This document shows, piece by piece, positions 43,853-63,434 of a DNA stretch of 64,000 bases. Within the stretch, counting starts at the first letter, position 1, and each line of letters starts with the position of its first letter. The position numbers and the translations under genes are program-made. Under the pieces are notes generated by a model. It saw only the letters and a program-made list of their open reading frames with translations. It searched no databases and was not told where the DNA came from. Origin of the DNA: a virus; the IMG/VR virus record IMGVR_UViG_3300029787_004704, positions 43,869 to 107,868 of that record. One strand, given 5' to 3'.

Positions 43853-44956
43853 ATGGTAAAACCATTTGACGTAACAAAGTTTAGAAAAAATATTACAAAA
43901 AGCATCGATGGCCTTGGTATAGGATTTAATGATCCTACAGATTGGATTTCTACAGGCAATCATGCATTAAATTATTTGATATCAGGAGATTTTTACAAAG
44001 GCATTCCGTTAGGAAAAGTAACAGTGTTTGCAGGAGAATCTGGTTCCGGAAAATCTTATATTTGTTCAGGTAACATTATAAGGGAAGCACAAAAACAAGA
44101 TATATTTGTCATTCTAGTAGATTCGGAAAATGCACTTGATGAAGCATGGTTAAAAGCAGTAGGTGTTGATACATCAGAAGAAAAACTGTTAAGACTAGGA
44201 ATGAGTATGATTGATGATGTTGCAAAAACAATATCTAATTTTGTTAAAGAGTACAGAGCAGATTATGGCGACAAAGATCCAGCAGACAGACCAAAAGTAC
44301 TATTTGTTTTAGATTCACTAGGCATGATGATGACTCCTACAGATGTTGATCAATTCAACAAAGGTGACATGAAAGGTGACTTAGGTCGTAAGCCTAAAGC
44401 ATTAACGGCACTGGTAAGAAACTGTGTCAATATGTTTGGCACATTGAATGTTGGAATGGTTGCAACTAACCATACGTATGCATCACAAGATATGTTTGAT
44501 CCTGATGACAAAATATCGGGTGGACAAGGATTTGTGTATGCATCGAGTATTGTAGTTGCAATGAAAAAACTAAAACTTAAAGAAGATGAAGCAGGCAATA
44601 AAATTACAGATGTAAGAGGTATTAGAGCGGCCTGTAAAGTTATGAAAACAAGATTTGCAAAGCCTTTTGAAGGTGTGCAAGTTAAGATTCCGTATGAAAC
44701 AGGCATGGATCCCTATTCAGGACTTGTTGATCTGTTTGAAAAGAAAGGCCTAATTACACAACAAGGCAACAGATTGAAATATATAACTGCAGATGGTACA
44801 GAAGTTCTTGATTACAGAAAGGCTTGGACAGGCGATAAACTAGATATTGTCATGCAAGAGGTAAGTAACCAAGTTGCTATCATTGATGATACAGAAACAA
44901 ACGATTTAGAAGAGGCAGTACAAACACAACAAGATGGAGATACAGATGCTAATTGA
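43853..44956 (+). CDS. uvsX: RecA-like recombinase UvsX
   Basis: A 367-residue recombinase (T4 UvsX: 391). Walker A GESGSGKS (61-68), the VILVDSENALDEAWL strand with the catalytic Glu, VLFVLDSLGMMM (Walker B) and VGMVATNHTYASQDMFDPDDK (L2-like region) are all present. It forms the presynaptic filament with gp32 and UvsY for recombination-dependent replication and repair. It is followed by the overlapping small acidic gene and UvsY, a compact recombination operon driven by the consensus promoter. Confidence 0.95.
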   Translation: MVKPFDVTKFRKNITKSIDGLGIGFNDPTDWISTGNHALNYLISGDFYKGIPLGKVTVFAGESGSGKSYICSGNIIREAQKQDIFVILVDSENALDEAWLKAVGVDTSEEKLLRLGMSMIDDVAKTISNFVKEYRADYGDKDPADRPKVLFVLDSLGMMMTPTDVDQFNKGDMKGDLGRKPKALTALVRNCVNMFGTLNVGMVATNHTYASQDMFDPDDKISGGQGFVYASSIVVAMKKLKLKEDEAGNKITDVRGIRAACKVMKTRFAKPFEGVQVKIPYETGMDPYSGLVDLFEKKGLITQQGNRLKYITADGTEVLDYRKAWTGDKLDIVMQEVSNQVAIIDDTETNDLEEAVQTQQDGDTDAN

Positions 44957-46846: not shown

Positions 46847-48085
46847 ATGTCTAAACCGAATGACACATATTGTCCATTACCATTTGTTGCGACAACAACA
46901 TCTCCTGATGGATATTGCAGATTGTGTTGTGAAAGCACAATTCCTTATTACACTAAAGTAACTGATTTAAAACAGTGGTGGACCAGTGATACTATAAAAG
47001 AAATCAGGCGGAAAATGTTGCAAGGAGAACATGTGAAAGATTGCGAAGTGTGTTACAAAGAAGAAAAAACATTAGGAACATCTTTGCGAACACAAGAAAT
47101 TTCACATTGGGGTAAAATTGAACAGGCCACTGAATTGCCAATATATTTGGATATGAAATTGGGAAATTTTTGCAACTTTAGATGTCTCATGTGTGATCCT
47201 CTAAGCAGTAACAGAATTATGAACGAATGGCGTGAATTAGGATGGGATAAAGAATTACCATTTAGAGAAGCCTCAGTAAACCATCATGACATATCGACAG
47301 CATGGAGCACAGATTGGAGTTGGCCTAATGAATTAGAATTTTGGAAAATTGTACAAGAGTGTATAATTTCCGGAGGTAAAAAATTAAAATTTACCGGAGG
47401 CGAACCTTTTTTAAATCCCCATGTGTTAAAAATAATATCTTCTGTTGATAAAGATGTTGATATGCGATTTACAACCAACGGATCAATTTGGAATAGCAAA
47501 ATAGAAAATGCATTAAAAAACAGAAGTGATTTACATATTGTTGTGAGTATTGAAGGCACAAGATTAGTAAATGATTATATAAGAGACGGCAGTGAATATG
47601 ATGTTATTCTAGAAAATTACAATCAAATGCAAAAATACTGTAAAACTATATGTTGGCAAACATCGTTTGGAGCAATAAATTTACAAGACATGCCAGATTT
47701 CATTGCACAATGTATAGAAAAAAAACAGCATATTGCATTAATAGAAATACGTGGACCTGAATTTATGCAGATTACAGCATTAACTAAACAAGCTAGAAAG
47801 CAAACTATAGAAAAACTGAATCACTTAAAAAGCACCATTACAACAGGAATGTTAGGACAGACTAAGGTAGATCTCACAGCAAATAATGAGACAGTACAAA
47901 AATTATTCGCACACACAGATGAAGCAAAAATGTCTTCTGAGATCGATTCATTAATAAAAATTATCGAGAGTAGTCTTGAGATATCGCAATCTAGTAAACC
48001 ACTGATAAATTATTTGTCTACATTGGATAAATCTCGTAGTAAAGATTATAAATCCATCCTGAAGCACAGTGATTTCAACCCATAA
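46847..48085 (+). CDS. Radical SAM protein with extra Cys clusters (twitch/SPASM-like)
   Basis: A 412-residue protein. The radical SAM [4Fe-4S] motif CNFRCLMC has Cys109, Cys113 and Cys116. KLKFTGGEPFLNP is the SAM-binding GGE region, and HIVVSIEGT a later strand. The N-terminus has additional Cys (C9, C24, C27, C28) and a CEVC pair (66, 69) that could bind a second cluster. Such phage 'twitch' radical SAM proteins are known by family but their substrates are not. It is in a run with two 2OG oxygenases and glycosyltransferases, all acting on unknown targets. Confidence 0.85.
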   Translation: MSKPNDTYCPLPFVATTTSPDGYCRLCCESTIPYYTKVTDLKQWWTSDTIKEIRRKMLQGEHVKDCEVCYKEEKTLGTSLRTQEISHWGKIEQATELPIYLDMKLGNFCNFRCLMCDPLSSNRIMNEWRELGWDKELPFREASVNHHDISTAWSTDWSWPNELEFWKIVQECIISGGKKLKFTGGEPFLNPHVLKIISSVDKDVDMRFTTNGSIWNSKIENALKNRSDLHIVVSIEGTRLVNDYIRDGSEYDVILENYNQMQKYCKTICWQTSFGAINLQDMPDFIAQCIEKKQHIALIEIRGPEFMQITALTKQARKQTIEKLNHLKSTITTGMLGQTKVDLTANNETVQKLFAHTDEAKMSSEIDSLIKIIESSLEISQSSKPLINYLSTLDKSRSKDYKSILKHSDFNP

Positions 48086-48098
48086 TAATTACAACACA

Positions 48099-48773
48099 AT
48101 GAAAGTTTATGTAGGATACGACACCAGAGAGGATATTGCTTATCAAGTGTGTGAGCATTCGATCAAACGGCGTAACGGCAAAACTGATGTAGTTGCTCTT
48201 AAGCAATCAGAATTAAGAGAACAAGGTTTATACACACGAGAAATAGACAAATTATCATCTACTGAATTTACATTTACGAGATTTTTTATTCCTTATCTAC
48301 AAAAATACAAAGGATGGGCAGTTTTTTGTGACTGCGATTTTGTATGGAAGATATCTCCTAGTGAATTAGAAAAATTTTGTGATGACACAAAAGCAGTGGT
48401 ATGTGTGCAACATGACTATACTCCTGAAGAAGGTACAAAAATGGATGGACAAATACAATTACAATATCCTAGAAAAAATTGGAGTTCGATGGTGTTATGG
48501 AACTGTGGACATCCTTCTAATAAAAAACTTACACCAGAACTTATAAACAGAGAAACAGGCAAATATTTGCATAGATTTTCGTGGCTTGATGATTCTGAAA
48601 TAGGTGAGTTGCCTTATGAATATAATTGGTTAGTGGGTTGGTATACAGAAACAGAGACACGCAAGCCTAAAATTTTGCACTACACAGAAGGCGGGCCTTG
48701 GTTTGAAAATTATAGAGAATGTGAATATTCTGATGATTGGAAAAAGGAACTTATTAACCTATTCAGTTCATAA
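48099..48773 (+). CDS. Glycosyltransferase (GT8-like, DxD)
   Basis: A 224-residue protein from the ATG at 48099 (MKVYVGYDTRED). The open frame begins at 48069 inside the radical SAM gene, but MKVYVGYD is the normal N-terminus of such enzymes. WAVFCDCDFVW holds a DxD metal site (78-80). The C-terminal KPKILHYTEGGPWFENYR with its His is typical of GT8-type enzymes. It transfers a sugar from a nucleotide donor, probably cytoplasmic. Stop and next start overlap by one base. Confidence 0.75.
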   Translation: MKVYVGYDTREDIAYQVCEHSIKRRNGKTDVVALKQSELREQGLYTREIDKLSSTEFTFTRFFIPYLQKYKGWAVFCDCDFVWKISPSELEKFCDDTKAVVCVQHDYTPEEGTKMDGQIQLQYPRKNWSSMVLWNCGHPSNKKLTPELINRETGKYLHRFSWLDDSEIGELPYEYNWLVGWYTETETRKPKILHYTEGGPWFENYRECEYSDDWKKELINLFSS

Positions 48774-49495
48774 TGTCTAAATTAAGCATATTACAAAATG
48801 CAGGCCAGATCTTCCACAAGCCATATCCTCATATCATTATTGAAAATGCTTTGCCAGAAAAACTTTTTAATGAATTACACAGTACTCTTCCAGAAACATA
48901 TGTAGCAGGAAAACCCTTGGGTCCTGATCATAGCAGGAGAGTTAAATTTCATGTGCTAGATGAAGACAAATGGCCTATTACTGATGTATGGAGAGATTTT
49001 TTTGAATATCATACATCACGTGAGTTTTTTGACGAAGTGCTAGATTTGTTCGGCGACCATGTGTCACTATTGCCTATTCAGCCATCAAAAATTATCACAG
49101 GCAGAGGTAAAAAATATTCGAACAATATTAATTGCTATCAAGACTGTCAATTTGTTAGACATGATGTGATGCCTGAAGGCGAAACCACACGCACTCCACA
49201 TTTTGATAATTTGTTTGAAATATTTGCTGGACTTTTGTATTTCAAACATGATTCAAGCACCGGTGGTGATTTTCACATACATGAACAAACACAACTGCCA
49301 ACCATGGGCGGAAAAAACAATGCTATTACCAATGCTGGCCCTATTTTTAGGACTGCTCCATATAAAAATAATACAGTTGCATTGTTCCTAAATAGCCGCT
49401 ATGCTATACATTCAGTTGAGCCTAGATCCGGAATACAACTTCCAAGATGGAGCGTCAACATTATAGGTAGGTATACAAATGCAAAAATGGTTTAA
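48773..49495 (+). CDS. 2OG-Fe(II) oxygenase, prolyl-hydroxylase type
   Basis: A 240-residue protein. The metal site is His143-x-Asp145 in TRTPHFDN and His213 in RYAIHSVEPR, with Arg225 as the likely 2-oxoglutarate ligand (IQLPRWSVNI). LLYFKHDSSTGGDFHIHE is the connecting strand pair typical of phage and bacterial prolyl-4-hydroxylase-like proteins. It could hydroxylate a protein or sugar. It is the second such enzyme within 3.2 kb and is tightly coupled to the glycosyltransferase before it and asparagine synthetase 4 bases after. Confidence 0.8.
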   Translation: MSKLSILQNAGQIFHKPYPHIIIENALPEKLFNELHSTLPETYVAGKPLGPDHSRRVKFHVLDEDKWPITDVWRDFFEYHTSREFFDEVLDLFGDHVSLLPIQPSKIITGRGKKYSNNINCYQDCQFVRHDVMPEGETTRTPHFDNLFEIFAGLLYFKHDSSTGGDFHIHEQTQLPTMGGKNNAITNAGPIFRTAPYKNNTVALFLNSRYAIHSVEPRSGIQLPRWSVNIIGRYTNAKMV

Positions 49496-49498
49496 TAA

Positions 49499-51211
49499 AT
49501 GTGTGGCATATACGGAATAACAGAACGTAATCCTGAATTCATAAATTCATACATCAAGCAGTGTTCACACAGAGGACCGGATGGTTACAGTATTTGGTAT
49601 GACGATGATATCAGTCTAGGACATAACTTATTAGCAATTACATCTGATCCTGCACAAGGAAAACAACCTGTGGAAACAAGACATGGAGTATTAACCTACA
49701 ATGGAGAGATATTCAATTATGCAGATCTAATAAAAGAAATAGAATGGAGTCCACAGACAACTTGTGACACAGAATATCTTTCACATGCATTAGGCACAAT
49801 GCCACATGAAGTAGTCAATGACAAAATTGATTCAATGCACGCCTACGCATATTACAATAAAGCAAAGAAGCATTTGATCCTAAGTAGAGATCATGCAGGA
49901 ATAAAACCTTTGTATTATGCTGAGATCCCACAAGGGTTAGTATTCGGTTCAGAGATAAAAGGTATGATTAACAAAGTGCCAAATGGACGATGCATAGACG
50001 ACTTTGCCGCGGCCGCAATGAGTTATTCTGGTATTAATCCAACTAGGAATACATTGTTTAAAAACATTAAAAAAGTTATGCCTGGCGAAACATTAGTGTA
50101 TGATGTTGCTAACAAAAGATTTATTCATTCTTATCAAAAAGTTATTACACCTACTTCCAAGGGCAAATTAGATTTAGAAGAGTTCAGGCATGAAGCACAT
50201 GAAACTGTAAAAATGAGTACATTGGGTCTGAGAAAATTTGGTGTGTTTTTGTCAGGTGGTTTAGATTCTACACTGGTTGCATACGAGTTAAAAAAGATTC
50301 TAGGTGACCTTGATTCGTTTACAAACAAGATGGAACCAAATGTTCGTATAGGAGAGGACTTTAATGATGACGCAAATTGTGCCAAACGTTTTGCTGAAGA
50401 TTACAATCTGAATCATCATAGTATTGTTGTTACACCAGAAACAGTAAAACAAAGTTGGAATGCAAGTATGCACACCATGGAGCAACCTGTGTATAATATT
50501 AGTATTCCTATGTATTATCAAACAAACAAATATCTTAGTGAACGTGGTGTTGTTGTAACAATGGCAGGAGATATGGGCGATGAATTGCTAGGAGGATATG
50601 CCAAGTATTGGAAACTGCGAAATGACCCGCCCAAAGACTTTAAGGATATGATTTGGAAATGGATGCACAGAATCAAACGTCCGGTACAATTAACCAGCAA
50701 GATAAATCCTAGAGACATACACTCAGAACTGTGTAAAGTTATTCCCGAAGATATCTGGAATCCCCAAGATCCAATTAATTCATATATGGCTGTTGATTGT
50801 ATCACGCAAGTGCCTGAAGAATTTTTCTCACGCAATGATAAATTTGGAATGCAGTTTTCTATGGAAGGCAGATTTCCTTTGGCAACAAAAAGATTTATGA
50901 AATACTGTATGAATATGCATTCACAGTACAAAATAGGCAAAAATAAAACAGATACAAAGTTGCCTACCAAACTTGCATACAAAGGTTACATGCCAGATTA
51001 CATCATAGACAAAATGAAAACAGGATGGACGGTGCCATTGATTTATTGGTTGGGAAATATGCCAGAACTAAATGACTGGGCAATGAGTTATATGCTCAAA
51101 GAAGACTGTTTGAAAAAACAAATATCCATGAAAAACTGGGACAACAAAAAGACCAGAGTAGTAAGTTGGATGATGCGTTCATGGGCACAAATTTACGATA
51201 TACAGTCATAA
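49499..51211 (+). CDS. asnB: Asparagine synthetase (glutamine-hydrolysing), AsnB type
   Basis: A 570-residue two-domain enzyme of full length. The N-terminal Ntn glutaminase domain starts MCGIYGI with Cys2 as nucleophile after Met removal, and RGPDG at 25-29. The synthetase domain has the PP-loop SGGLDST (252-258). MAGDMGDELLGGY and GMQFSMEGRFP are further family motifs. It makes Asn from Asp, ATP and Gln, but in clusters of sugar genes such enzymes may amidate a sugar acid or peptide instead. It converges with the 51193 gene with a 19-base overlap. Confidence 0.92.
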   Translation: MCGIYGITERNPEFINSYIKQCSHRGPDGYSIWYDDDISLGHNLLAITSDPAQGKQPVETRHGVLTYNGEIFNYADLIKEIEWSPQTTCDTEYLSHALGTMPHEVVNDKIDSMHAYAYYNKAKKHLILSRDHAGIKPLYYAEIPQGLVFGSEIKGMINKVPNGRCIDDFAAAAMSYSGINPTRNTLFKNIKKVMPGETLVYDVANKRFIHSYQKVITPTSKGKLDLEEFRHEAHETVKMSTLGLRKFGVFLSGGLDSTLVAYELKKILGDLDSFTNKMEPNVRIGEDFNDDANCAKRFAEDYNLNHHSIVVTPETVKQSWNASMHTMEQPVYNISIPMYYQTNKYLSERGVVVTMAGDMGDELLGGYAKYWKLRNDPPKDFKDMIWKWMHRIKRPVQLTSKINPRDIHSELCKVIPEDIWNPQDPINSYMAVDCITQVPEEFFSRNDKFGMQFSMEGRFPLATKRFMKYCMNMHSQYKIGKNKTDTKLPTKLAYKGYMPDYIIDKMKTGWTVPLIYWLGNMPELNDWAMSYMLKEDCLKKQISMKNWDNKKTRVVSWMMRSWAQIYDIQS

Positions 51212-53567: not shown

Positions 53568-54542
53568 ATGAAAGTTGAAATTTTTCGAAACACAGTAAAA
53601 CGCAGAGGTAAAGGTGCTTCTTTTGAGATGATGAAAGCATGGCGTGAAGGCATTGCCGCTGTGGGAGATGAAGCAATTTGGATAGAGGGATCACCAGACA
53701 AAGAAAAATGGATGGGTCCACCTAAAGAAAAAGTGTGTGTGCATTTTGGATATGGACCAGACAATGCAGGAGATTTTCTTAAAGGCAACAGACGCAAAAT
53801 AAGACAACACATGGAACAGCATGGTGGTGTGCCTATTGTGTTTGATGGCGGACTTTGGACATCATTTGGTAACCGTGCTAGTGTGCCTGAACAACATTAT
53901 TTTAGATGTGGATTATGGTCACCAATGCGTAATGGTAATTTTTTAAACAAAAATTCCCCAGGTGATAGATGGCAAAAAATAAAATCAACTTTTAACATAG
54001 ATGAAAGACCTTGGCGTAAAGAAGGCAAATATATTTTGCTATGTACACAACCTAAAGACAATTGGTCAATGGCACAAAAAGATCCTTATGTGTGGGTGGA
54101 CGAAGTGGTTGAACAACTAAGAGGAGTCACAGATAGACCTTTAATGTTGCGTCCACATCCGAATCATGCTGACAAGTGTGCAGAAGATATTCGTAAGAGA
54201 CATCCACAAATTAAAATAGCAGACATGACAAGAGGCGGTGGAATGTTTGAAGGATACAGATGGACATTCTTGGAAGAATTAAACAATATACATTGTGTTG
54301 TAACACACAACTCAACTGCCGCAGTCGATGCCGCAACGTATGGAGTACCTGTGTTTTTGACTTCAGATCTGTGTCTTGCATGGGATATTGGGTCACACGA
54401 TTTAAAACAGATAGAAAATCCTGTCATGCCAGATCGTACACAATGGTTACACGATCTTGCTTATGCCAATTGGACTCTGCAAGAAGTAAGAGATGGCACA
54501 GTATGGCAATTCATGAAACCACAAGTTGAAAAGTTAATATGA
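53568..54542 (+). CDS. Capsule/CDP-glycerol-type glycosyltransferase-like protein, paralogue C
   Basis: A 324-residue protein, from the ATG at 53568 (MKVEIFRNTVKRRGKG). The frame is open to 53529, but that part spans the divergent promoter. It has the shared ending IHCVVTHNSTAAVDAATYGV then PVFLTSDLCLA, and WLHDLAYANWTLQEVRDGTVW. RPLMLRPHPNHADKC is the typical RPHP loop of KpsC/CDP-glycerol transferases, better kept than in A and B, so this may be the active ancestor. It starts a plus-strand operon with the nucleotidyltransferase, HAD, nucleoside phosphorylase and GT2 genes (all overlapping). Confidence 0.65.
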   Translation: MKVEIFRNTVKRRGKGASFEMMKAWREGIAAVGDEAIWIEGSPDKEKWMGPPKEKVCVHFGYGPDNAGDFLKGNRRKIRQHMEQHGGVPIVFDGGLWTSFGNRASVPEQHYFRCGLWSPMRNGNFLNKNSPGDRWQKIKSTFNIDERPWRKEGKYILLCTQPKDNWSMAQKDPYVWVDEVVEQLRGVTDRPLMLRPHPNHADKCAEDIRKRHPQIKIADMTRGGGMFEGYRWTFLEELNNIHCVVTHNSTAAVDAATYGVPVFLTSDLCLAWDIGSHDLKQIENPVMPDRTQWLHDLAYANWTLQEVRDGTVWQFMKPQVEKLI

Positions 54543-55276
54543 GTGCTTTAACAGTAATTTTACCAGCGGCAGGAAATGGTACAAGATTAAACTTGCCCTA
54601 TCCTAAAGAAATATTGAGACTTAATGATCATGAAGCACTTATAGATAGTTCATTTAATTTTTTTAGAGATTATGGTCGCAAAGACGTAGAATTTGTTGTT
54701 GTTATAAATGAAAATAAAACAGAAATTATTTCTTATCTAGCCAAATACAAAGACAGATACAATATTTCTTTTGTGTATCAAAACCCAAATGAGTATGAAT
54801 ACACTGGAGCAATTAAAAGTGCAAAGCACCTTTTTGGCGAGCATAATATTGTTTTATTGCCTGATACCATTATGACACTATCACCTAACACTGATTTGTT
54901 TGAAACTGTAAAACATTCTTTAACTGAAACAGGATTTACTTTCTTATACAAAAAAGAAAGCAATGAAGGTGTTTTAAAAACAAAAGGAGCCTTGTTTGTA
55001 AACAATGAAAATATTGTTGAACAATACGAGGACAAACCAGAAACAGGATATGAAAACTTTAATGCGTATTGGTGTGCTTTTGCTTTTAGAAAAAGAACTT
55101 TTGACTCTTGCATGACTTTTATGGAAAAGTCGACGTTGAAACAACGCATTGACAATGAAGAAATAAAACAAACTCCTATATACAAATCCAAAGCAATCAA
55201 AGTAGAAGATTACATTGACCTTGGTACATGGGAAGAAATAAGAAGAGTGTTACTTAATGAAGAAAATAATAAGTGA
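54539..55276 (+). CDS. Sugar-phosphate nucleotidyltransferase
   Basis: A 245-residue protein with the nucleotidyltransferase N-terminus VILPAAGNGTRLNLPYPKE (residues 6-24), in which G-x-G-x-R and PKE bind the NTP. NIVLLPDTIMTL and an AYWCAFAFRK strand continue the GT-A-like fold. The C-terminus holds VEDYIDLGTWEEIRR, typical of glucose-1-phosphate thymidylyl/uridylyl-type enzymes. It activates a sugar phosphate to a nucleotide sugar. Overlaps the paralogue C stop by 4 bases (ATGA) and the HAD gene by 20. Confidence 0.85.
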   Translation: MSALTVILPAAGNGTRLNLPYPKEILRLNDHEALIDSSFNFFRDYGRKDVEFVVVINENKTEIISYLAKYKDRYNISFVYQNPNEYEYTGAIKSAKHLFGEHNIVLLPDTIMTLSPNTDLFETVKHSLTETGFTFLYKKESNEGVLKTKGALFVNNENIVEQYEDKPETGYENFNAYWCAFAFRKRTFDSCMTFMEKSTLKQRIDNEEIKQTPIYKSKAIKVEDYIDLGTWEEIRRVLLNEENNK

Positions 55277-55823
55277 TTGTGACGGCGTATTATTGGATTG
55301 GGCATTCGCATTTGATGTATGGATGGCTGAACAAGGATATCAAAAACTACCAGAAGCAGATCAGCACTTCAGTCAAACATTAAGATATGCGATCGATGAA
55401 ACAGAAGCACAGAACCAAGTTTCAAGATTTAATGAATCAGGATCTGTAGGATACTTGCCTGCGTATAAAGACAGTGTTGAGTACGTGACAAAATTTGCTA
55501 GTGATGGTTACAGATTCGAAGTGATAAGCAGTTTACACATGGACAAGTACGCACAAAAATTAAGAACGGAAAATTTAAAACATATTTTTGGCGATGTGTT
55601 TGATTACATAGATTGTAGTTTAGATTTTCGCAAAGGCAAAAAATCGGTGTTAGAGCAAAGATACAAAGGTACTGGATATGTTTGGTTGGAAGATAATGTG
55701 TCTCATGCAGAAGCTGGTGATGCAATAGGCATGAACACATACATATTTGACCATCCATACAATAGATCATATAATGGAAGAAGAGTAAAGAATTGGAAAG
55801 AGTTGTATGACGCCACACATTGA
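55257..55823 (+). CDS. HAD-superfamily phosphatase
   Basis: A 188-residue HAD protein. DCDGVLLDW (7-15) holds the nucleophile Asp7 and acid/base Asp9, FEVISSLHMDKYAQKL is motif II (Ser), and WLEDNVSHAEAGDAIGM is motif IV. It probably dephosphorylates a sugar phosphate or nucleotide; phages also use small HADs for nucleotide turnover. It overlaps the nucleotidyltransferase and the phosphorylase (17 bases), so it is translated with them. Confidence 0.8.
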   Translation: MKKIISDCDGVLLDWAFAFDVWMAEQGYQKLPEADQHFSQTLRYAIDETEAQNQVSRFNESGSVGYLPAYKDSVEYVTKFASDGYRFEVISSLHMDKYAQKLRTENLKHIFGDVFDYIDCSLDFRKGKKSVLEQRYKGTGYVWLEDNVSHAEAGDAIGMNTYIFDHPYNRSYNGRRVKNWKELYDATH

Positions 55824-56502
55824 AGCACAAAAAGGTGATTATGCGGAAACAGTATTAATGCCAGGTGACCCTTTAAGGGCCAAATGGATTGCACAAACTT
55901 TTTTAACGGATGTAAGGCAAGTTAACAGTGTAAGAAATTGTTTAGGTTACACAGGAGTCTATAAAGGAAGGAACATATCAGTTCAAGGTGGTGGAATGGG
56001 CATGCCTAGCAATGCAATTTACATTACTGAATTGTTTAAATTTTACGATGTGCAAACAATCATAAGAGTAGGCAGTTGTGGAGCCATACAAAAGAATATC
56101 AAAATAGGTGACATAGTTGCGGCCACTACTGCTTCTACTGACAGTGCAATGGGTAAAGAACTTATTCCTGGATTTACATATGCACCCAGTTGTAACTTTG
56201 ATCTACTTAAAAATTTTGTTGATAAGTGTCCAGATGCTCACGTTGGTGGCATTACTTCGAACGATTATTTTTATCAACCTGACAAGAAATGGTGGAAACA
56301 GTGTCAAAAATATAATGTGTTAGCAGTAGAAATGGAAACTTATATCTTGTATGCCTTAGCCGCAGAATACAACAGAAAAGCTCTCAGTGTGAATACAGTG
56401 TCAGATCATTTAGATCCTAACTGGTTAGATATAAAAAACTTATCACCTAAACAAAGAGAGACAGGGTTTGACCGTATGATTAAGTGTGTTCTAGAATTAT
56501 GA
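55807..56502 (+). CDS. deoD: Purine nucleoside phosphorylase, DeoD type
   Basis: A 231-residue protein of the hexameric PNP family (E. coli DeoD: 239). MPGDPLRAKWIAQTFL holds the phosphate-binding Arg24, IIRVGSCGAIQ the central Gly-rich strand, VLAVEMETYILYALA the substrate Met-Glu, and VNTVSDHLDPN the catalytic Asp. It splits purine (deoxy)nucleosides with phosphate into base and ribose-1-phosphate, so it could feed host nucleosides into phage DNA or sugar phosphates into this cluster. The active-site residues are intact. Overlaps the next gene by 4 bases. Confidence 0.92.
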   Translation: MTPHIEAQKGDYAETVLMPGDPLRAKWIAQTFLTDVRQVNSVRNCLGYTGVYKGRNISVQGGGMGMPSNAIYITELFKFYDVQTIIRVGSCGAIQKNIKIGDIVAATTASTDSAMGKELIPGFTYAPSCNFDLLKNFVDKCPDAHVGGITSNDYFYQPDKKWWKQCQKYNVLAVEMETYILYALAAEYNRKALSVNTVSDHLDPNWLDIKNLSPKQRETGFDRMIKCVLEL

Positions 56503-57194
56503 TATGTGTTGCTATTCCATCACGTGGCAGGCCGGCCTTTCTTAAAAGAGTAATAGATACAGCATCACAAACGGCAGATAATTGGGAAGAAGTAATTGTA
56601 AAATATTATCTCAATGATGATGATCCTGATCTTAAAAAATACAAAAAAATTTTACAAGGCCTACAAACAACACACGGTCCGTCGGTGCAGTGGGAAATAG
56701 GACCTGATCAAAACACGGTACAAAGTTGGAATATGTTGTGTGAAAATACAGAAGCAGATTATTACATGTTGGCTGGAGATGAAATACAGTTTGTTACAGA
56801 AGGGTGGGATACAAAAGTTAAACAAACCAAACAAGATTATCCTGACGGAATATTTTGTATGGCAGTGTATGACGGAAGACCAAACAGGGCAGAACTGCTC
56901 AGGTGCACACAACCGATTGTGACCAAAGAATGGCGTGAAGCACTTGGTTATTTTTGGGCGCCTTTCCTATGGCATTGGCACGTGGATCAATACACTGGAG
57001 ACCTTGCAAAAGCAGTGGATCGTTTTGTGTTTCGTGAAGATATCTTTATCAAGATAAGAAAAATGAAAGACAGGACTGCCAAACGCAATCGTGGCAGAGG
57101 TGTGTTCGATAGAGACGAGTGGGTGTATGAAAAACATAAGGAACTATACTTTGACATCGACACCAAAAAGTTGTTGGACAAAATGTCAAAATAG
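56499..57194 (+). CDS. Glycosyltransferase, GT2-like
   Basis: A 231-residue protein starting MICVAIPSRGRPAFLKRVID at the ATG in the ATGA overlap with the phosphorylase gene; an upstream GTG-type start at 56484 is less likely. YYLNDDDPDLKKYKK and ADYYMLAGDEIQFV give a GT-A layout, with an acidic D-E pair where the DxD would be. The C-terminus is basic (KIRKMKDRTAKRNRGRG). It is the last gene of the plus-strand glycan operon; the promoter of the symporter gene overlaps its last codons. Confidence 0.7.
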   Translation: MICVAIPSRGRPAFLKRVIDTASQTADNWEEVIVKYYLNDDDPDLKKYKKILQGLQTTHGPSVQWEIGPDQNTVQSWNMLCENTEADYYMLAGDEIQFVTEGWDTKVKQTKQDYPDGIFCMAVYDGRPNRAELLRCTQPIVTKEWREALGYFWAPFLWHWHVDQYTGDLAKAVDRFVFREDIFIKIRKMKDRTAKRNRGRGVFDRDEWVYEKHKELYFDIDTKKLLDKMSK

Positions 57195-57202
57195 TATATA
57201 AT
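57174..57202 (+). promoter_or_regulatory. Sigma-70-type promoter for the symporter, leaderless
   Basis: TTGGAC (57174-57179, or TGGACA with a 16-base spacer) and TATAAT (57197-57202). The ATG at 57209 follows 6 bases after the -10 box (TTGCAT). Confidence 0.65.
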
Positions 57203-57208
57203 TTGCAT

Positions 57209-58651
57209 ATGGATATCACAAATTTATTCCCACTGTTTCCTGCCAGTACTGGGATCAACATTTTATTGGTATATGGGTTGTTTGCGTTCGCGATGACTTA
57301 TTATTTTTCGCGGGGTTACAATGACAACAAAACTTCTTTTCTAGTTGCAAGACGTGAACTTGGTACTTTCCAAGGCTCACTCAGTGTTGCGGCAGCTTGG
57401 TTATGGGCACCTGGACTGTTCATATCTGCTCAACAGGCATATGTCAACGGATTGGTAGGACTGTTTTGGTTTTGTTTGGGCAACTTCCTTACTCTAGGAG
57501 CATTTGCTTATTTTGCCAAACGCATTAGAAACAATGAACCAGAAGGATTTACTTTTTCAGGTTATCTAAAAGATCGTTTCTCGGGCAGAGTGCAAAGTCT
57601 GTTTGTGGTAGAAATGATGATATTAGCCACATGTGCATTTGCAATCAATTTGTTGGCAGGATCAAAAACTGTAGAAGTTTTAACAGGAGTCGATTACACA
57701 CTGGCAACATTTTTGATGGTAGGTGTTGCGATACTTTATTCATTCAGGACAGGCTTAAAAGCAACTGTGGTCACAGAAATAATCAAAATTATAGTTGTAT
57801 GGATTGGGGTACTAATTTTAGTGCCATGGGCAATCTCTAGTGCAGGTGGCTGGGACATAGTTGCCGCAGGTATTGGTGGCAAAACAGGATTAGGTGGATC
57901 AATATTCGGAACGTCATTTGCATGGGGCATATTCACTGGATTTGGTGCGGCCGCTTTCTTAGGACACTTGGGTGGACCATGGGGAGACAATTCATTTTAT
58001 CAAAGAGCATTTTCTATCAAGATAGGTTCAATCATACCAGCATATGTAATTGCTTCTTTTGTGTTCATTGTAATTCCAATCTGTATGGGACTGTTAGGCT
58101 TTTTGGCCGCTGGCTCAGGATTAGATATTCCAGGGAACATGGTGGGTACAACCAATGCAATCGTGATAGGAACTTTTCTGCCACCGATAGCATCAATCAT
58201 ATTTGCGTTCATGATATTTGCTGGTTTGGTTGCAATACTTGATTCACAGTTTGCATCTGTTGCCAACATGACAGGGCATGACATATACAACCAATTTAAA
58301 ACAGGTAGTCCTATCAGTTCTGCACGATATGGCATGATTGCTTTAGCATTAGCGGGTCTTATAGTGGCGAATATTCCGGGTATGCAGTTAGTGTATCTGT
58401 TTTTATTCTTTGCTGTTTTACGTGCATCTGTGTGGTTGCCATCGATGATTGCTGTGCTAAGACCACAATGGATCACAGAACAAGGAATGTTTTGGGGTAT
58501 ATTAATACCAGCATCTATAGGTGAAGTCTTATTTGTTGCAGGAAAACTTGGTTATACAGACACTGCTTTCACAGGAACATTGATTGCTATCTTTGGCTCT
58601 CCTGTGTTAACATTGTTAATAAGCAAGTATGGAAAAGGAAAATCCAAGTAA
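57209..58651 (+). CDS. Sodium/solute symporter (SSS family), full length
   Basis: A 480-residue integral membrane protein with about 12-13 hydrophobic segments, the normal size for the sodium:solute symporter family. SFLVARRELGTFQGSLSVAA, WLWAPGLFISAQQAY (TM2-3 region), AFAINLLAGSKTVEVLTGVD, SFRTGLKATVVTEII and AGLVAILDSQFASVANMTGH (TM8-9 family signature with Ser/Asp-type Na site region) are seen. Related transporters carry proline, urea, pantothenate or other small solutes with Na+; the substrate is not clear. The TTG at 57203 is an earlier in-frame start but ATG at 57209 is better. Phages rarely carry intact secondary transporters. It has its own promoter. Confidence 0.85.
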   Translation: MDITNLFPLFPASTGINILLVYGLFAFAMTYYFSRGYNDNKTSFLVARRELGTFQGSLSVAAAWLWAPGLFISAQQAYVNGLVGLFWFCLGNFLTLGAFAYFAKRIRNNEPEGFTFSGYLKDRFSGRVQSLFVVEMMILATCAFAINLLAGSKTVEVLTGVDYTLATFLMVGVAILYSFRTGLKATVVTEIIKIIVVWIGVLILVPWAISSAGGWDIVAAGIGGKTGLGGSIFGTSFAWGIFTGFGAAAFLGHLGGPWGDNSFYQRAFSIKIGSIIPAYVIASFVFIVIPICMGLLGFLAAGSGLDIPGNMVGTTNAIVIGTFLPPIASIIFAFMIFAGLVAILDSQFASVANMTGHDIYNQFKTGSPISSARYGMIALALAGLIVANIPGMQLVYLFLFFAVLRASVWLPSMIAVLRPQWITEQGMFWGILIPASIGEVLFVAGKLGYTDTAFTGTLIAIFGSPVLTLLISKYGKGKSK

Positions 58652-59303
58652 ACTTTTAATTGTAACAGGTCCGCAAGGATCCGGTAATCATTTATGGGCA
58701 AAGGTGTTTTCAATGCATCCATCTGTGAATGGTTGGCCCATGTTAAAAGATGAGTGGCAAGGTCATCATGAAGAGCCAATGAATGAATATTGGCAGGAAC
58801 CAAGCAAACTATCTGAACTGGAACTAGATGATCGCAACAAGTACGTCACATCTATATCATGTCCATATTTTAAAAACAAGCAACCACAAACCCCCAATTA
58901 CGCAAATTTTGTTAAGCATGCCAAACAAAAATTTGATGAAGTGAAAATGTGCGTCATAGGGCGTGACAGAGACATTTTGGAAATGCAACAAACACGAGTG
59001 CGTGGCGAACACACAACTCCCATGGCACTTGAACAGTTTAAAAATTTTGATAAAACAATGTGTGAAGGGATAGGACAATATGTAGGCATTGAGAATATGC
59101 AATATATCTCAACCGAATTGCTGTATCTATACGGAGGATCCTATCTTAAAACATTAGAAAAAAACTTAGACTTTCCTGTGGCGTGGAATCATGAAACTTT
59201 GCTAAAAGACTATATCAAAAAAAATAGCAACAGTAAGTATTTGACAAGTCCCCAAAAAGGTGACTTTGATGAACAAGTATATAAAGCTGTGAGTGAGTCG
59301 TAA
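58629..59303 (+). CDS. P-loop sulfotransferase/kinase-like protein
   Basis: A 224-residue protein beginning MEKENPSKLLIVTGPQGSGNHLWAKVFSMHP. GPQGSGNHLWAK is a P-loop-like motif at about residues 14-25, more like the PAPS-binding loop of sulfotransferases (GxxGSGn..l) than a kinase Walker A, since the Lys is displaced. VKMCVIGRDRDILEMQQTRV recalls the second PAPS-contact strand. Later residues are helical. It may transfer sulfate to a glycan. It overlaps the symporter end by 23 bases, so it is on the same transcript. Confidence 0.5.
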   Translation: MEKENPSKLLIVTGPQGSGNHLWAKVFSMHPSVNGWPMLKDEWQGHHEEPMNEYWQEPSKLSELELDDRNKYVTSISCPYFKNKQPQTPNYANFVKHAKQKFDEVKMCVIGRDRDILEMQQTRVRGEHTTPMALEQFKNFDKTMCEGIGQYVGIENMQYISTELLYLYGGSYLKTLEKNLDFPVAWNHETLLKDYIKKNSNSKYLTSPQKGDFDEQVYKAVSES

Positions 59304-60112
59304 TGTTTGTTCATCGAGACAACATAATAAAAGGACAAAAATTAAAACTGCTATTTTCTAATTCGACTGATGTAGTAGAATGCACATATACCCTGCATGA
59401 ATCCATTATTGCTTCTAATTGGTTTAGAAAAATAAAGCATTTAAAAAATGTGCCTGTAGATCCTGTTGAATCATATATGACAGACTTATCAGATATAAAA
59501 TCGTTGTATAGACAATTTTGCGATTATGCACAAATACCAAAAGATATCAATTGGAATGTTTTGGATCAAGATGTGTTAAATCAATTGCACAGAGTATATG
59601 AGTCACATCATCCAACACTTGTTAATTTGCCTAATAATCAAGCAATGTACAAATTCCATAAGTCAATACACTATCACGAAATAGGTGGAAACCCACAGAA
59701 GATAGTTGTAGGTTGGGGCAACAAAGAAGGGCCTGTGACATATAATTTTTTATGCAATAAATTTTATGAAGATTCAGTTAAAAAAAATAATCTGTATTTG
59801 TCTTGGATTGAATTAGGTAAAAGGCCAAGTGATTATTATTTAGATGGAGAGCCTAATTCACAAGAAAGAATAAATGAGTTATGCAAACCGCATGTTACCT
59901 TTGGTGCAAACTTTTTTATAACTCATGAAGATAGGACAGGAAATTTAACGCAGGACTTTATAGATTGGTTTGATCCTTATAAAAAGGCATGGTGTAAAAA
60001 ATATGGCCTGGATGATTGGACCGCCAAAGATGAGTATAGTGCTCCTCTACTTGCAATAGCTGAACATGATAATAATCTTGAAGGATATCAATTCGAAAAG
60101 ATAATACTTTAG
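59303..60112 (+). CDS. Hypothetical protein
   Basis: A 269-residue protein, Trp/Tyr/His-rich, no membrane segment. YKFHKSIHYHEIGGNPQKIVVGWGNKEG and YLSWIELGKRPSDYYLDGEP followed by THEDRTGN look like conserved structured parts, but I cannot place them in a family. The start overlaps the stop of the P-loop gene by one base (TAATG), so they are coupled and may act together. It converges with the methyltransferase gene with a 4-base overlap. Confidence 0.55.
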   Translation: MFVHRDNIIKGQKLKLLFSNSTDVVECTYTLHESIIASNWFRKIKHLKNVPVDPVESYMTDLSDIKSLYRQFCDYAQIPKDINWNVLDQDVLNQLHRVYESHHPTLVNLPNNQAMYKFHKSIHYHEIGGNPQKIVVGWGNKEGPVTYNFLCNKFYEDSVKKNNLYLSWIELGKRPSDYYLDGEPNSQERINELCKPHVTFGANFFITHEDRTGNLTQDFIDWFDPYKKAWCKKYGLDDWTAKDEYSAPLLAIAEHDNNLEGYQFEKIIL

Positions 60113-60645
60113 GTACCCATTAAATGTTTTTGTCCATGGAAAAATATTCTTGCATTGTCATTTTCCATTTGTATCACATCTAATGAATATTCATAACATA
60201 AATCTTTTAGATAACTTTTGCTCCATGGAAAAAACTGTATGCCTTCAGCAACAGGATCTGAGTGGCCAATTCGCGAGCCAGGATTGAATCTTCCAAAAAA
60301 GTGTCCTTTATTTTTTAACAAACTAACTGCTTTTTTGAATTGTCTTCGCACCTTAAACTCTGTCCCAAAATTTATACTACCCAAAGCAAGTATTACATCC
60401 CATTGTTTTGTGCCACAGTTATAATTCTCAATAGATACTTTTTCATCAGCCGCAGAATTGTATGGGTCAATACCATATAAATTTGGTATTTGTTCTTTAA
60501 GTTGGTTGTAGCCACATCCAATATCTAAAACAGATTCTGGTTGTAAATCATTTATTTTTTCAATCAGTTTATAACCACTGTGTTCAAATTTGGCCCAATC
60601 TGGTTTCCATATGCCACCGAAATATTCTTTTAAATTATCTTCCAT
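60109..60645 (-). CDS. SAM-dependent methyltransferase
   Basis: A 178-residue class I methyltransferase. VLDIGCGYNQLK (39-50) is the SAM-binding motif I, LYGIDPYN the motif II acidic strand, and WDVILALGSINFG the motif IV region. The C-terminus is beta-type (HFFGRFNPGSR, DVIQMENDNARIFFHG). It probably methylates a small molecule or glycan. It is divergent from nothing close by and lies downstream of gp46 on the same strand with an 18-base gap. Confidence 0.8.
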   Translation of the reverse strand: MEDNLKEYFGGIWKPDWAKFEHSGYKLIEKINDLQPESVLDIGCGYNQLKEQIPNLYGIDPYNSAADEKVSIENYNCGTKQWDVILALGSINFGTEFKVRRQFKKAVSLLKNKGHFFGRFNPGSRIGHSDPVAEGIQFFPWSKSYLKDLCYEYSLDVIQMENDNARIFFHGQKHLMGT

Positions 60646-60663: not shown

Positions 60664-62427
60664 TCATCCTGCATTGTCAACAAAAGCATAAGATGTAAAA
60701 CCACCTTCTTTGGTCACTTTCAATACACTGTTTACACGTCCTTGCAGTTCATCTCTGTGTGAAATAAGATAAATGTTCTTGTGTCGCTCACGTGATATTT
60801 GTTTCAATATGCTGATTGCATTTTCTACTCCAGCTGTGTCCATGCCAGAATCAACCAACTCATCTATAAACATTGTGTTGATTCCATGATATAACATTTC
60901 CCATACATCTCTAAACGCCCAACACAAACTCAGGGTAAGTCTATTACGTTCACCTCTACTTAGATTATCAAAGTCTAAGTCTCTACCAAGTTCAGTGATT
61001 TCAACACTGAGATCTGATTGGAACACAACCTCATGCGGCAAGCCAGTTTTGTTTAGATAGTATGCCAATCTTGCATTTAAGTAAGTTAAGTTTTGATCAA
61101 TCACTTTCTTACGCACAAATGAATCTTTAGATGTCAACAGTTTGTACAAAAACTCTTGATGATCTTGCAGTTTACGTAAATTATTCATTTTATCATATGA
61201 CAACTCTTGCACTGCTGAAGTTTTTAATTCATCTATTTGATCAGCATATGGATCAGATTCTTTTGTTTTAGTTTGTAATTGTTCACCAAGATAACCAACT
61301 GTGTTTTCATGTTTATAGGCCTCTTGTGCAGTTTCATAATATGTGTTTGGTTGTACAAGATCACCTATGCCTTGTATTTTTCCAGACAGTTTTGTTTCTT
61401 GCACAACTAATTCTTCTATGTATTTTTCAAACTGTGTTTGATCATCTGTGTATTTTTTAACCAGTTCTTGATGTTTTTCATCTTCCATTGTAGCACCACA
61501 GGTTGGACAAGTGTTGTCTTCTGTGTTTGCTATGTTGGTTAATATGTCTGTAAGTTGTTTAGTTGATTGTTTTACTGCTGTCTGCACAGTGCTAAGTTCA
61601 CGTTCCCATGTTCTTTTCTTTTCATAATTTTCTCTGTAAGATTCCAACTGCTTGTGTTTTTCAATTTCTGATTGAATGTCCACTTTCATTAGTTCTTCTA
61701 ATGATTTTGTTAGTTTGTTTATTTCTTCATCTTGTGTTGTACGCCATGCACTGCTTCTTATTTTTAACGTGTCAATGGATGATTGTATTTTTTCATTGTT
61801 GCGTTCTATTGTATCCAAACGTATTTCTTCTTCTTTGATTACTTCTTTGGTTTCTTTTGTCTCTTCTTTTAAGACTTCTGCTTTTTCAGACAGCACAGTT
61901 ATTCCTAGCAGTTGTTCAATAATATCTTTTTGTTCTGCCGCTTTCAATCCAAAGAAAGGAGGTGAATATGTGTGTAGTGCAACAATATTTTGGAACATGA
62001 TGTGACTCATGCCCAATATTTTTGTTATGTCTTTTTGTGTTTCACGTGAATCACCTTGTGCTTCATCATCTGTTTCTTCCTGTCCATCTACATAAAATTT
62101 TATAACAGCAGGTTTACGTCCACGTTCAATTTTATATTGTTTGCCTTGTATTTCAAATTCACAAGACACCAACATGTTTTTTCCGTTTGTTTTGTTTACG
62201 AGATTATCTCTTTTGATGTTTGTAAGTGCATCGCCAAACAATGCAAAGGAAAGTGCATTCAGTATTGTTGTTTTGCCAGTACCATTCCTTGATCCAGCAT
62301 CATCACCACCAAGATCAATGTTTTGTCCCAATACTAATGTTAGTTCATGTCCCTCTAAATTTAGCGCCTGTGTTACATTGCCCACACTCATAAAGTTTTT
62401 TACTGTAAGTGTTTTAAGTTTGATCAT
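60664..62427 (-). CDS. 46: Recombination endonuclease subunit gp46 (SbcC/Rad50-like)
   Basis: A 587-residue ABC-type ATPase (T4 gp46: 560). Walker A GSRNGTGKTT is at 45-54, the zinc-hook CPTCGA near the middle of long coiled coils, and the C-terminal signature LSRGERNRLTLSLCWAFRD, Walker B TMFIDELVDSGMD and YLISHRDEL. With gp47 it forms the nuclease complex that processes DNA ends for recombination and host DNA breakdown. Its start overlaps the gp47 stop by 4 bases (ATGA). Confidence 0.95.
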   Translation of the reverse strand: MIKLKTLTVKNFMSVGNVTQALNLEGHELTLVLGQNIDLGGDDAGSRNGTGKTTILNALSFALFGDALTNIKRDNLVNKTNGKNMLVSCEFEIQGKQYKIERGRKPAVIKFYVDGQEETDDEAQGDSRETQKDITKILGMSHIMFQNIVALHTYSPPFFGLKAAEQKDIIEQLLGITVLSEKAEVLKEETKETKEVIKEEEIRLDTIERNNEKIQSSIDTLKIRSSAWRTTQDEEINKLTKSLEELMKVDIQSEIEKHKQLESYRENYEKKRTWERELSTVQTAVKQSTKQLTDILTNIANTEDNTCPTCGATMEDEKHQELVKKYTDDQTQFEKYIEELVVQETKLSGKIQGIGDLVQPNTYYETAQEAYKHENTVGYLGEQLQTKTKESDPYADQIDELKTSAVQELSYDKMNNLRKLQDHQEFLYKLLTSKDSFVRKKVIDQNLTYLNARLAYYLNKTGLPHEVVFQSDLSVEITELGRDLDFDNLSRGERNRLTLSLCWAFRDVWEMLYHGINTMFIDELVDSGMDTAGVENAISILKQISRERHKNIYLISHRDELQGRVNSVLKVTKEGGFTSYAFVDNAG

Positions 62428-63434
62428 AAATTTTTGTATATTTCAAGTAACAAATGACTGTCGTAATGTTCCGAGTCAACTGCCTGTATTTGATTATGCA
62501 CAATTTCATCGATGGATTCAAATGCTTGTGGCATCTCAGTTGAATCATACTGTGTCATGTCTCGCTGTTGTATAAAAGTCATTTCACGCAATTTGTATTG
62601 TCTTAAAAAAGTATCTTTGACAAAGTTTGAATCTTCATATGTGATGTCTGTGTCTATGTCTACTCGCACATAACTGTTTTTTTGCAGTATTGAAGAACTG
62701 TGTAACAGTTCACTTAGTTTTGCTGTTTGATACTTTGGACAATCGGGCCAATCATGATACAAAGGATCACCGCCAAATTCCAGCTCCATGTAACCTCTAG
62801 CATAATCATTTGCATCTGAATAATTGTGTGGAAACGCATTACCAATATAATGGATGTTGCCCTTGACTTGGCGTTTGTGGAAGTGTCCTGAAAACACGTA
62901 TCCATGATGTTGCAAGTGTTCTGCTCTCAGTTCATTGGTGTCGGGCATTGATATCATTGCGTTCATAAGGAAGTAAGGCAACTCAAAGTGACCAAACACG
63001 TACGGCAGAGATTTGGCCTCTTTGAGTTCCTTCCATTCATCTCCGACTAACCAAGGGATAAACGCACAGTCCTCTTTTATCAACGGTTCATGAATAATTT
63101 GTAAGTTGGGAATATTTTTTGCCCATTCAACTGAATTGACTGCTCTTGAATCTTTGAAGTACAAGTCATGATTACCCAGTATGAAAAAACTTTGTTCAAA
63201 TGCATTGGCAAGTTTTTCTAATGCACGTAATGAATATCCTAATGTGTCTATGTTAATGGTGGCTCTGTGATGATGCCAATCGCCCATGAATATAAATGTT
63301 TCACAGTTGCGTGATTGTGCGTCTTTGATAAACCAATCCACAAATCGATCACAGTCTTGATTAAACTGTCTAGAGTTACCTTTGTTGCCAAAGTGTATGT
63401 CAGTGAAAACGGCCGCACGTTTAAAAGTCTGCAT
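62424..63434 (-). CDS. 47: Recombination endonuclease subunit gp47 (SbcD/Mre11-like)
   Basis: A 336-residue metallophosphoesterase (T4 gp47: 339). The metal-binding motifs are AVFTDIHFGNKG (Asp12, His14), FIFMGDWHHHRA, FILGNHDLYF and VFGHFELPYF / YVFSGHFHKRQ. It is the nuclease partner of gp46 and is coupled to it. It lies between gp55 and gp46, so recombination and late transcription genes are together on the minus strand at this end. Confidence 0.95.
   Translation of the reverse strand: MQTFKRAAVFTDIHFGNKGNSRQFNQDCDRFVDWFIKDAQSRNCETFIFMGDWHHHRATINIDTLGYSLRALEKLANAFEQSFFILGNHDLYFKDSRAVNSVEWAKNIPNLQIIHEPLIKEDCAFIPWLVGDEWKELKEAKSLPYVFGHFELPYFLMNAMISMPDTNELRAEHLQHHGYVFSGHFHKRQVKGNIHYIGNAFPHNYSDANDYARGYMELEFGGDPLYHDWPDCPKYQTAKLSELLHSSSILQKNSYVRVDIDTDITYEDSNFVKDTFLRQYKLREMTFIQQRDMTQYDSTEMPQAFESIDEIVHNQIQAVDSEHYDSHLLLEIYKNL

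Follow-up and report, generated by a model that had tools for sequence, protein, structure and literature searches.

A conserved SSS-fold transporter in a phage contig, its linkage to sulfotransferase-fold and methyltransferase-like genes and its apparent exchange for TctA/TctC carriers

The transporter locus and its phage context

The window, which denotes the whole 64,000-nucleotide stretch analysed, comprises the final 64 kb of an IMG/VR record of 107,868 bases (IMGVR_UViG_3300029787_004704). A gene for a solute transporter is located in the window together with several phage genes:

57209..58651, + strand: SSS/SLC5-fold transporter, 480 amino acids, intact (Pfam, PHROG, AF2, Foldseek, pN/pS)
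7468-9183: portal, phage hallmark gene
13008-14183: major capsid, phage hallmark gene
30787-34230: tail sheath, phage hallmark gene
38299-39879: terminase large subunit, phage hallmark gene
43853-44956: UvsX, phage gene

The capsid and terminase proteins of the window share 64-69 % and 49-55 % amino acid identity, respectively, with those of the jumbo phages PA5oct, Phosso and Atu_ph07, and the record is thus probably a fragment of a larger genome. The GC content of the transporter gene (40.5 %; GC3 32 %) is in line with that of its neighbours. As expected of an auxiliary metabolic gene, the transporter gene lies together with phage hallmark genes, is conserved over phage contigs and is non-structural.

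The open reading frame extends from an ATG at 57209 to a TAA ending at 58651, with no internal stops. Comparison against the Pfam SSF profile (PF00474) gave 63.9 bits (cut-off 22.8) over profile positions 1-405 of 406, a full-length match to the SSS family (PF00474, TC 2.A.21), while the TIGR00813 profile scored 96.4 bits against a curated cut-off of 184 and phrog_20720 scored 268.7 bits. An AlphaFold model, for which 20 viral relatives served as input, has a mean pLDDT of 84.4 and a pTM of 0.87, and its best Foldseek matches in the PDB are all SLC5/SSS structures, including DUR3 (TMq 0.76-0.82), CHT1, SGLT1/2, the iodide symporter, vSGLT and SiaT. One core helix of the model is interrupted:

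57365..57448, + strand: core TM1, residues 53-80, broken at 65-66 (AAWLWAPGLF), by DSSP on the model

Helices were assigned to residues 53-64 and 67-80 with a break at 65-66, and this segment is predicted to be the unwound core TM1 of a LeuT-type fold. Among the viral family members the TM1 tryptophan W64 is invariant and W66 occurs in 66/68. The Pfam family, the LeuT fold and the broken TM1 are shared with PutP, SGLT and SiaT. Both the intact, full-length SSS transporter and its residence in a phage genome, as proposed in the sequence-only reading, are thus borne out, the former by the open frame, the Pfam match and the modelled fold, the latter by the portal, capsid, sheath, terminase and UvsX genes on the same contig. 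That the locus holds a real and conserved phage transporter of known fold, situated in a gene cassette, can be stated with high confidence.

The closest solved SSS member by sequence profile is the urea-H+ symporter DUR3 (E 3e-33), followed by a CHT-like protein (3e-16). DUR3 (PDB 9j7c/9j7d, 9x5u, 9vim) is also among the best fold matches, and shares with the phage transporter the W-x-W of TM1 and the absence of a hydroxyl at the second Na2 position. It differs, however, in its length (704-773 residues versus 480), in the low identity of the structural alignment (~20 %) and in lacking an acid at the position of E190. Assigning a substrate on the basis of subfamily was unsuccessful, as the NCBIfam equivalogs PutP, PanF and ActP scored 33, 31 and 26 bits against cut-offs of 515, 328 and 750, respectively, and DUR3 is nearest yet distant. 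No substrate is thus assigned to the transporter, nor is it placed among the DUR3 urea transporters.

Transcription of the transporter gene

A private sigma-70-type promoter had been attributed to the gene in the sequence-only reading, and a matching element does occur immediately upstream:

57174..57202, + strand: putative sigma-70-like promoter, TTGGAC-17-TATAAT

The element scored as TGGACA-16-TATAAT (11/12), and the TATAAT is conserved in the five sequences closest to that of the window. Promoter-like sites occur in the region about as often as by chance, however, with 31 found compared to 29.9 +/- 4.9 in shuffled sequence. The -35 element lies inside the upstream coding sequence, while the -10 element ends 6 nt ahead of the ATG, so that a transcript initiated here would be leaderless. 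With sites at chance level and this leaderless geometry the element was discarded as evidence, its retention in close relatives notwithstanding. The preceding ORF ends 14 bp before the transporter gene and the following ORF is overlapped by 23 bp, which makes co-transcription within an operon at least as likely as expression from a private promoter.

A separate and conserved viral clade

Two scans of viral contigs identified at least 77 IMG/VR loci encoding relatives of the transporter (46-97 % amino acid identity). An initial scan covering 84,980 species of bacteria and archaea found no relatives, and a second genome scan, using degenerate patterns, yielded bacterial and prophage relatives at 32-42 % identity only. 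In a maximum-likelihood tree of bacterial and prophage sequences and 51 sampled viral sequences, including that of the window, the viral transporters group together as a single clade (SH-aLRT 100, stem length 1.05) that includes none of the bacterial or prophage sequences. Several branches outside the viral clade are long, and the branch order there is consequently unsure. A recent host donor was ruled out, as the first scan returned none and the second only relatives at 32-42 %; judged from these comparisons, the transporter is not a recent host acquisition. The view in the sequence-only reading that phages seldom carry complete secondary transporters is at odds with the viral loci of this one clade and with a clostridial prophage cassette in which an SSS gene is fixed.

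The transporter is under strong purifying selection, with pN/pS values of 0.066-0.084 against its relatives at 94-97 % identity. One copy is split into two frames (L056:5096-6440), while the remaining full-length copies are intact. For a comparison of congruence with the capsid, a recognisable capsid gene was present in only 6/48 records.

SSS genes are common in bacteria, and the locus might stem from a host through misassembly or chimerism of the contig, the outcome that would have undone the earlier interpretation. The phage structural genes on the contig, the matching GC content, the 77 further viral loci and the ceiling of 42 % identity to cellular relatives practically exclude this explanation, as independent contigs bearing both the transporter and phage genes argue against misassembly.

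The Na2 site and ion coupling

Two elements of the transporter correspond to cation-binding positions in characterised SSS proteins:

57776..57778, + strand: E190 codon, acidic position of the Na3 site (SiaT Asp182, TM5), by alignment
58232..58249, + strand: TM8 residues 342-347 (A-I-L-D-S-Q), by alignment to SGLT1, CHT-like and DUR3 chains

SiaT coordinates its Na2 ion through the hydroxyls of Ser342 and Ser343, and transport is abolished when Ala is substituted for Ser at either position (PMC5931594). PDB-profile alignments place A342/I343 of the phage transporter opposite Ser-Ser in SGLT1 and the CHT-like protein, and opposite Ser-Ala in DUR3, so that the Ser/Thr pair expected in TM8 of a Na+-coupled SSS symporter is missing. 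All viral members (68/68) have Ile or Val at residue 343, and at residue 342 they are divided between Ala (40) and Ser (28), in contrast to the Ser-Ser or Ser-Thr of PutP, SGLT and SiaT. Clostridial prophage homologues retain the canonical Ser-Thr, with Thr at position 343 in 64/64. The residue check proposed for the Na2 site thus found the key residues lost, and the designation as a sodium symporter is doubtful. This change is not unique to the viral clade, since the canonical pair is absent from nearly half of PF00474 sequences (PMC5931594). Proton coupling has a precedent in the SSS member CbrA, which lacks the Na2 residues and is proton-driven (PMC7918813).

An Na3 site has also been described in SiaT, including Asp182 in TM5 (PMC5931594). 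At the corresponding position E190 is Glu in 68/68 viral members and Asp in 64/64 clostridial prophage homologues, with an Asp aligned in hSGLT1. Among the 68 viral members D345 is invariant and S346 is Ser in 67. The Na3 residues of SiaT (D182, S345, S346) are thus represented by E190 and S346, with D345 at the S345 position; many true Na+ symporters lack Na3.

The loss of the Na2 side chains suggests altered ion coupling. In the absence of the hydroxyls, the driving ion is probably the proton, or a cation bound at an altered E190/D345/S346 site, and not Na+ at Na2. The loss does not signify a dead gene, given the pN/pS of 0.07-0.08, the intact fold and the invariance or near invariance of E190, D345 and S346. 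The transporter could be Na+-coupled after all, through backbone carbonyls at Na2 together with the Na3-like E190/D345/S346 site, and the conservation of these three residues is compatible with this, as is the coordination of Na2 by main-chain carbonyls as well (PMC7918813). Replacement of the second hydroxyl by Ile/Val in every viral member, the transport defects of the SiaT Ser342Ala and Ser343Ala variants (PMC5931594) and the lack of a hydroxyl at the same position in the H+-coupled DUR3 make sodium coupling rather unlikely. With the pair kept in prophage relatives and lost in the viral clade, these transporters represent a natural experiment on ion coupling.

Genes linked to the transporter

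Clustering of the neighbours of 78 transporter loci revealed recurrent partner genes, and in the window these are represented by the following:

58629..59303, + strand: sulfotransferase-fold P-loop protein, 224 amino acids (cluster 1), overlapping the transporter gene by 23 bp
58668..58691, + strand: P-loop motif GPQGSGNH, residues 14-21 of the sulfotransferase-fold protein (alignment of 35 sequences)
60109..60645, - strand: SAM-methyltransferase-like protein, 178 amino acids (cluster 2), third recurrent gene of the cassette

The sulfotransferase-fold protein (family length ~213 amino acids) is encoded near the transporter in 67/78 loci and the methyltransferase-like protein (~182 amino acids) in 59/78, while a 2OG-oxygenase-like protein and a second sulfotransferase-like protein occur in 32/78 and 23/78 loci, respectively. 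The sulfotransferase-like gene lies directly downstream of the transporter gene, with overlapping or touching frames, in 48 loci. The linkage survives rearrangement; for example, in L038, L060 and L063-L066 the sulfotransferase-like and methyltransferase-like genes are found 2-3 kb upstream on the other strand. Both partner genes are absent from L045 and L074-L076, where the flanks are ample.

The AF2 model of the sulfotransferase-fold protein has a pLDDT of 91.3, and its top nine Foldseek matches are sulfotransferases, although the likeness is moderate (best E 1.1e-4, TMq 0.38-0.54). The model is consistent with a sulfotransferase fold bearing an N-terminal P-loop, and the GPQGSGNH motif is nearly invariant in the alignment. 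Searches with the protein sequence gave no Pfam, PHROG or convincing PDB sequence match, and only the term sulfotransferase-fold is thus used. The methyltransferase-like protein of the window scored under the Methyltransf_23 cut-off while the L005 copy exceeded it (28.7 bits), and the 2OG-oxygenase label is based on a weak Pfam match and a sequence motif.

Two further links were considered and rejected. A PAPS-reductase-family gene was encoded in none (0/32) of the viral-clade records searched, so that any PAPS would have to come from the host. Asparagine synthase passed its family cut-off in 3/32 viral records, namely that of the window and two of its closest relatives. Among bacterial relatives from several phyla, the transporter gene adjoins genes for an asparagine-synthase-like protein and a membrane protein with a zinc ribbon (L085, 1665-5898; L087; L091; L100), while in L083, L086 and L088 it lies beside a SGGIDS-motif ATP-pyrophosphatase-like protein.

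Apparent exchange of the SSS gene for TctA/TctC

A reciprocal scan, performed with the sulfotransferase-like family alone, identified 73 new loci. An SSS gene was present in 22 of these and a Tct gene in 26, the latter class comprising loci with both TctA permease and TctC-like binding protein as well as loci with TctC only; neither was in view in 25 and both occurred together in none. The exclusion has a hypergeometric P of 5.8e-6 under independence and uncorrected for relatedness, and related contigs inflate the counts. Over 42 whole records, the 28 with an SSS gene have no TctA/TctC and the 14 with TctA/TctC have no SSS gene. The two carriers are thus mutually exclusive in the cassette, and the SSS gene appears to have been swapped for an unrelated carboxylate transporter in related phages. 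The methyltransferase gene accompanies 38/48 transporter-bearing loci compared to 5/25 of those without a transporter. The 25/73 loci with no transporter in view indicate that the sulfotransferase-like gene has roles without one.

Pfam scores were 270-312 bits for TctA and 65-95 bits for TctC, while the TctC likeness of a 360-amino-acid protein beside TctA was judged by eye only. At some of the 18 TctA loci the transporter is located 5-7 kb from the sulfotransferase gene, and the link is thus looser there. Phage TctA genes with an adjacent gene for a signal-peptide-bearing TctC-like protein were observed in L212:8061-10682, L235:5770-8316 and L220:5678-8273, where the pairs adjoin sulfotransferase-like and 2OG-oxygenase-like genes. 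A TctC-family binding protein is encoded in the cassettes of L209:7363-8325, L213:7353-8330 and L228:6754-7731, in records without a TctA gene; this absence was checked over the whole records of L213, L228 and L237. A tctA domain hit and a 2OG-Fe(II) oxygenase have been reported among the auxiliary genes of SUP05 viral contigs, and no sulfotransferase or methyltransferase link of tctA was found in the text of that report that was searched (PMC4164917).

A parallel cassette in clostridial prophages

Most of the transporter's clostridial relatives are prophage-borne, and the genes there follow one fixed order, namely an HTH regulator, SSS, PAPS-reductase-like, ParB-like, PAPS-reductase-like and ParB-like proteins, and the small and large terminase subunits. 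The SSS proteins of these prophages (e.g. L104, L092, MT836198.1) resemble that of the window in their full-length homology (32-39 %), phage-borne location and enzyme neighbours, but the cassette places PAPS-reductase-like and ParB-like genes before the terminase rather than containing sulfotransferase and methyltransferase genes. PHROG 20720, which is listed as 'unknown function', corresponds to this clostridial prophage SSS (632 bits), and a function can thus be proposed for the family. Starting from the PAPS-reductase gene alone, an SSS gene was found beside it in 27/37 loci; of the ten without, nine are truncated where the contig stops and the tenth matches only weakly. The cassette was observed at L104:5269-12657 and in L238-L273, with the SSS gene present wherever the contig reaches far enough. 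Host contamination was ruled out for the fecal phage record MT836198.1, which carries the cassette. Two PAPS-reductase PHROGs (424, 2302) have been reported in one Clostridium clostridioforme prophage, with no mention of a transporter or permease in the text of that report (PMC11318856).

Proposed function of the transporter

The evidence would fit an SSS-fold secondary transporter that is inserted by the phage into the inner membrane of the host, where it would import a small organic solute during infection. It may form the membrane part of a cassette with the sulfotransferase-fold enzyme and the SAM methyltransferase, often joined by the second sulfotransferase-like and 2OG-oxygenase-like proteins, and the imported solute may feed these enzymes or host metabolism. 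Uptake would be driven by protons, or by a cation at E190/D345/S346, instead of by Na+ at Na2. Given that a TctA/TctC carboxylate transporter can occupy the place of the SSS gene, the solute taken up is probably a small organic acid or a compound of that kind. Solute uptake during infection, as put forward in the sequence-only reading, is a plausible role for a complete SSS-family transporter. As a whole, this account of small-solute import coupled away from the usual sodium site has about an even chance of being correct.

A broader and more tentative reading is that the locus represents a modular uptake-and-modify cassette of tailed phages. The carrier would be interchangeable (SSS or TctA/TctC), its coupling ion would have been switched off Na2, and it would supply the phage's sulfotransferase-type, methyltransferase and 2OG-oxygenase enzymes with a small organic molecule, with the clostridial SSS and PAPS-reductase-like/ParB-like cassette as a parallel. 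It is possible, though again doubtful, that the gene serves ordinary nutrient or osmolyte uptake (urea, choline/betaine-like or carboxylate) and that the enzymes are merely co-inherited in a variable metabolic island. Urea (DUR3) and choline are the substrates of the closest solved relatives, metabolic genes (AsnB, radical SAM, DeoD phosphorylase) occur nearby in the window, and an osmoregulatory role has been ascribed to SSS genes of estuarine virus contigs (PMC13288924). The linkage to the same two or three genes nevertheless outlasts rearrangement and holds for an unrelated transporter family, and AsnB is found at full strength only in the closest relatives.

Phages also carry membrane exclusion proteins, and the protein may not transport at all, acting rather as a membrane sensor or as a blocker of a host transporter that serves rival phages as their receptor. 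SSS domains do occur in sensor kinases such as CbrA (PMC7918813), but a signalling domain is neither fused nor adjacent here, the core fold and pocket-region residues are conserved over wide divergence, and the same cassette is occupied by unrelated transporters, rendering such a role improbable.

Phage transporters are usually regarded as host genes stolen here and there. The secondary transporter described here is complete, has a viral clade to itself, keeps the same enzyme neighbours through rearrangement and shows an apparent swap of carriers, which suggests that supplying small molecules to infected cells is a dedicated phage function. If confirmed, solute import during infection would be a directly testable function of phages. 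No description of a phage SSS gene linked with these enzymes, of the cassette or of the transporter exchange was found in the open-access literature searched, and the cassette is apparently previously undescribed.

Other features of the window

Upstream of the transporter gene lies a metabolic island (46847-51211 and 54539-56502) encoding a radical SAM (twitch-domain) protein, a 2OG-Fe(II) oxygenase-like protein, a glutamine-hydrolysing asparagine synthase, nucleotidyltransferase-like and NT5C-like proteins and the purine nucleoside phosphorylase DeoD. A Rad50/SbcC-like (zinc hook) and Mre11/SbcD-like pair, resembling T4 gp46/gp47, is encoded on the minus strand at 60664-62427 and 62424-63434. 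A single ORF of 3015 amino acids is situated amid the virion genes (16727-25774). Many structural genes carry a (T)AAATA-type motif just before their start codons (14260, 16727, 28900, 34948, 38299 and 39901), which is T4 late promoter-like but almost leaderless.
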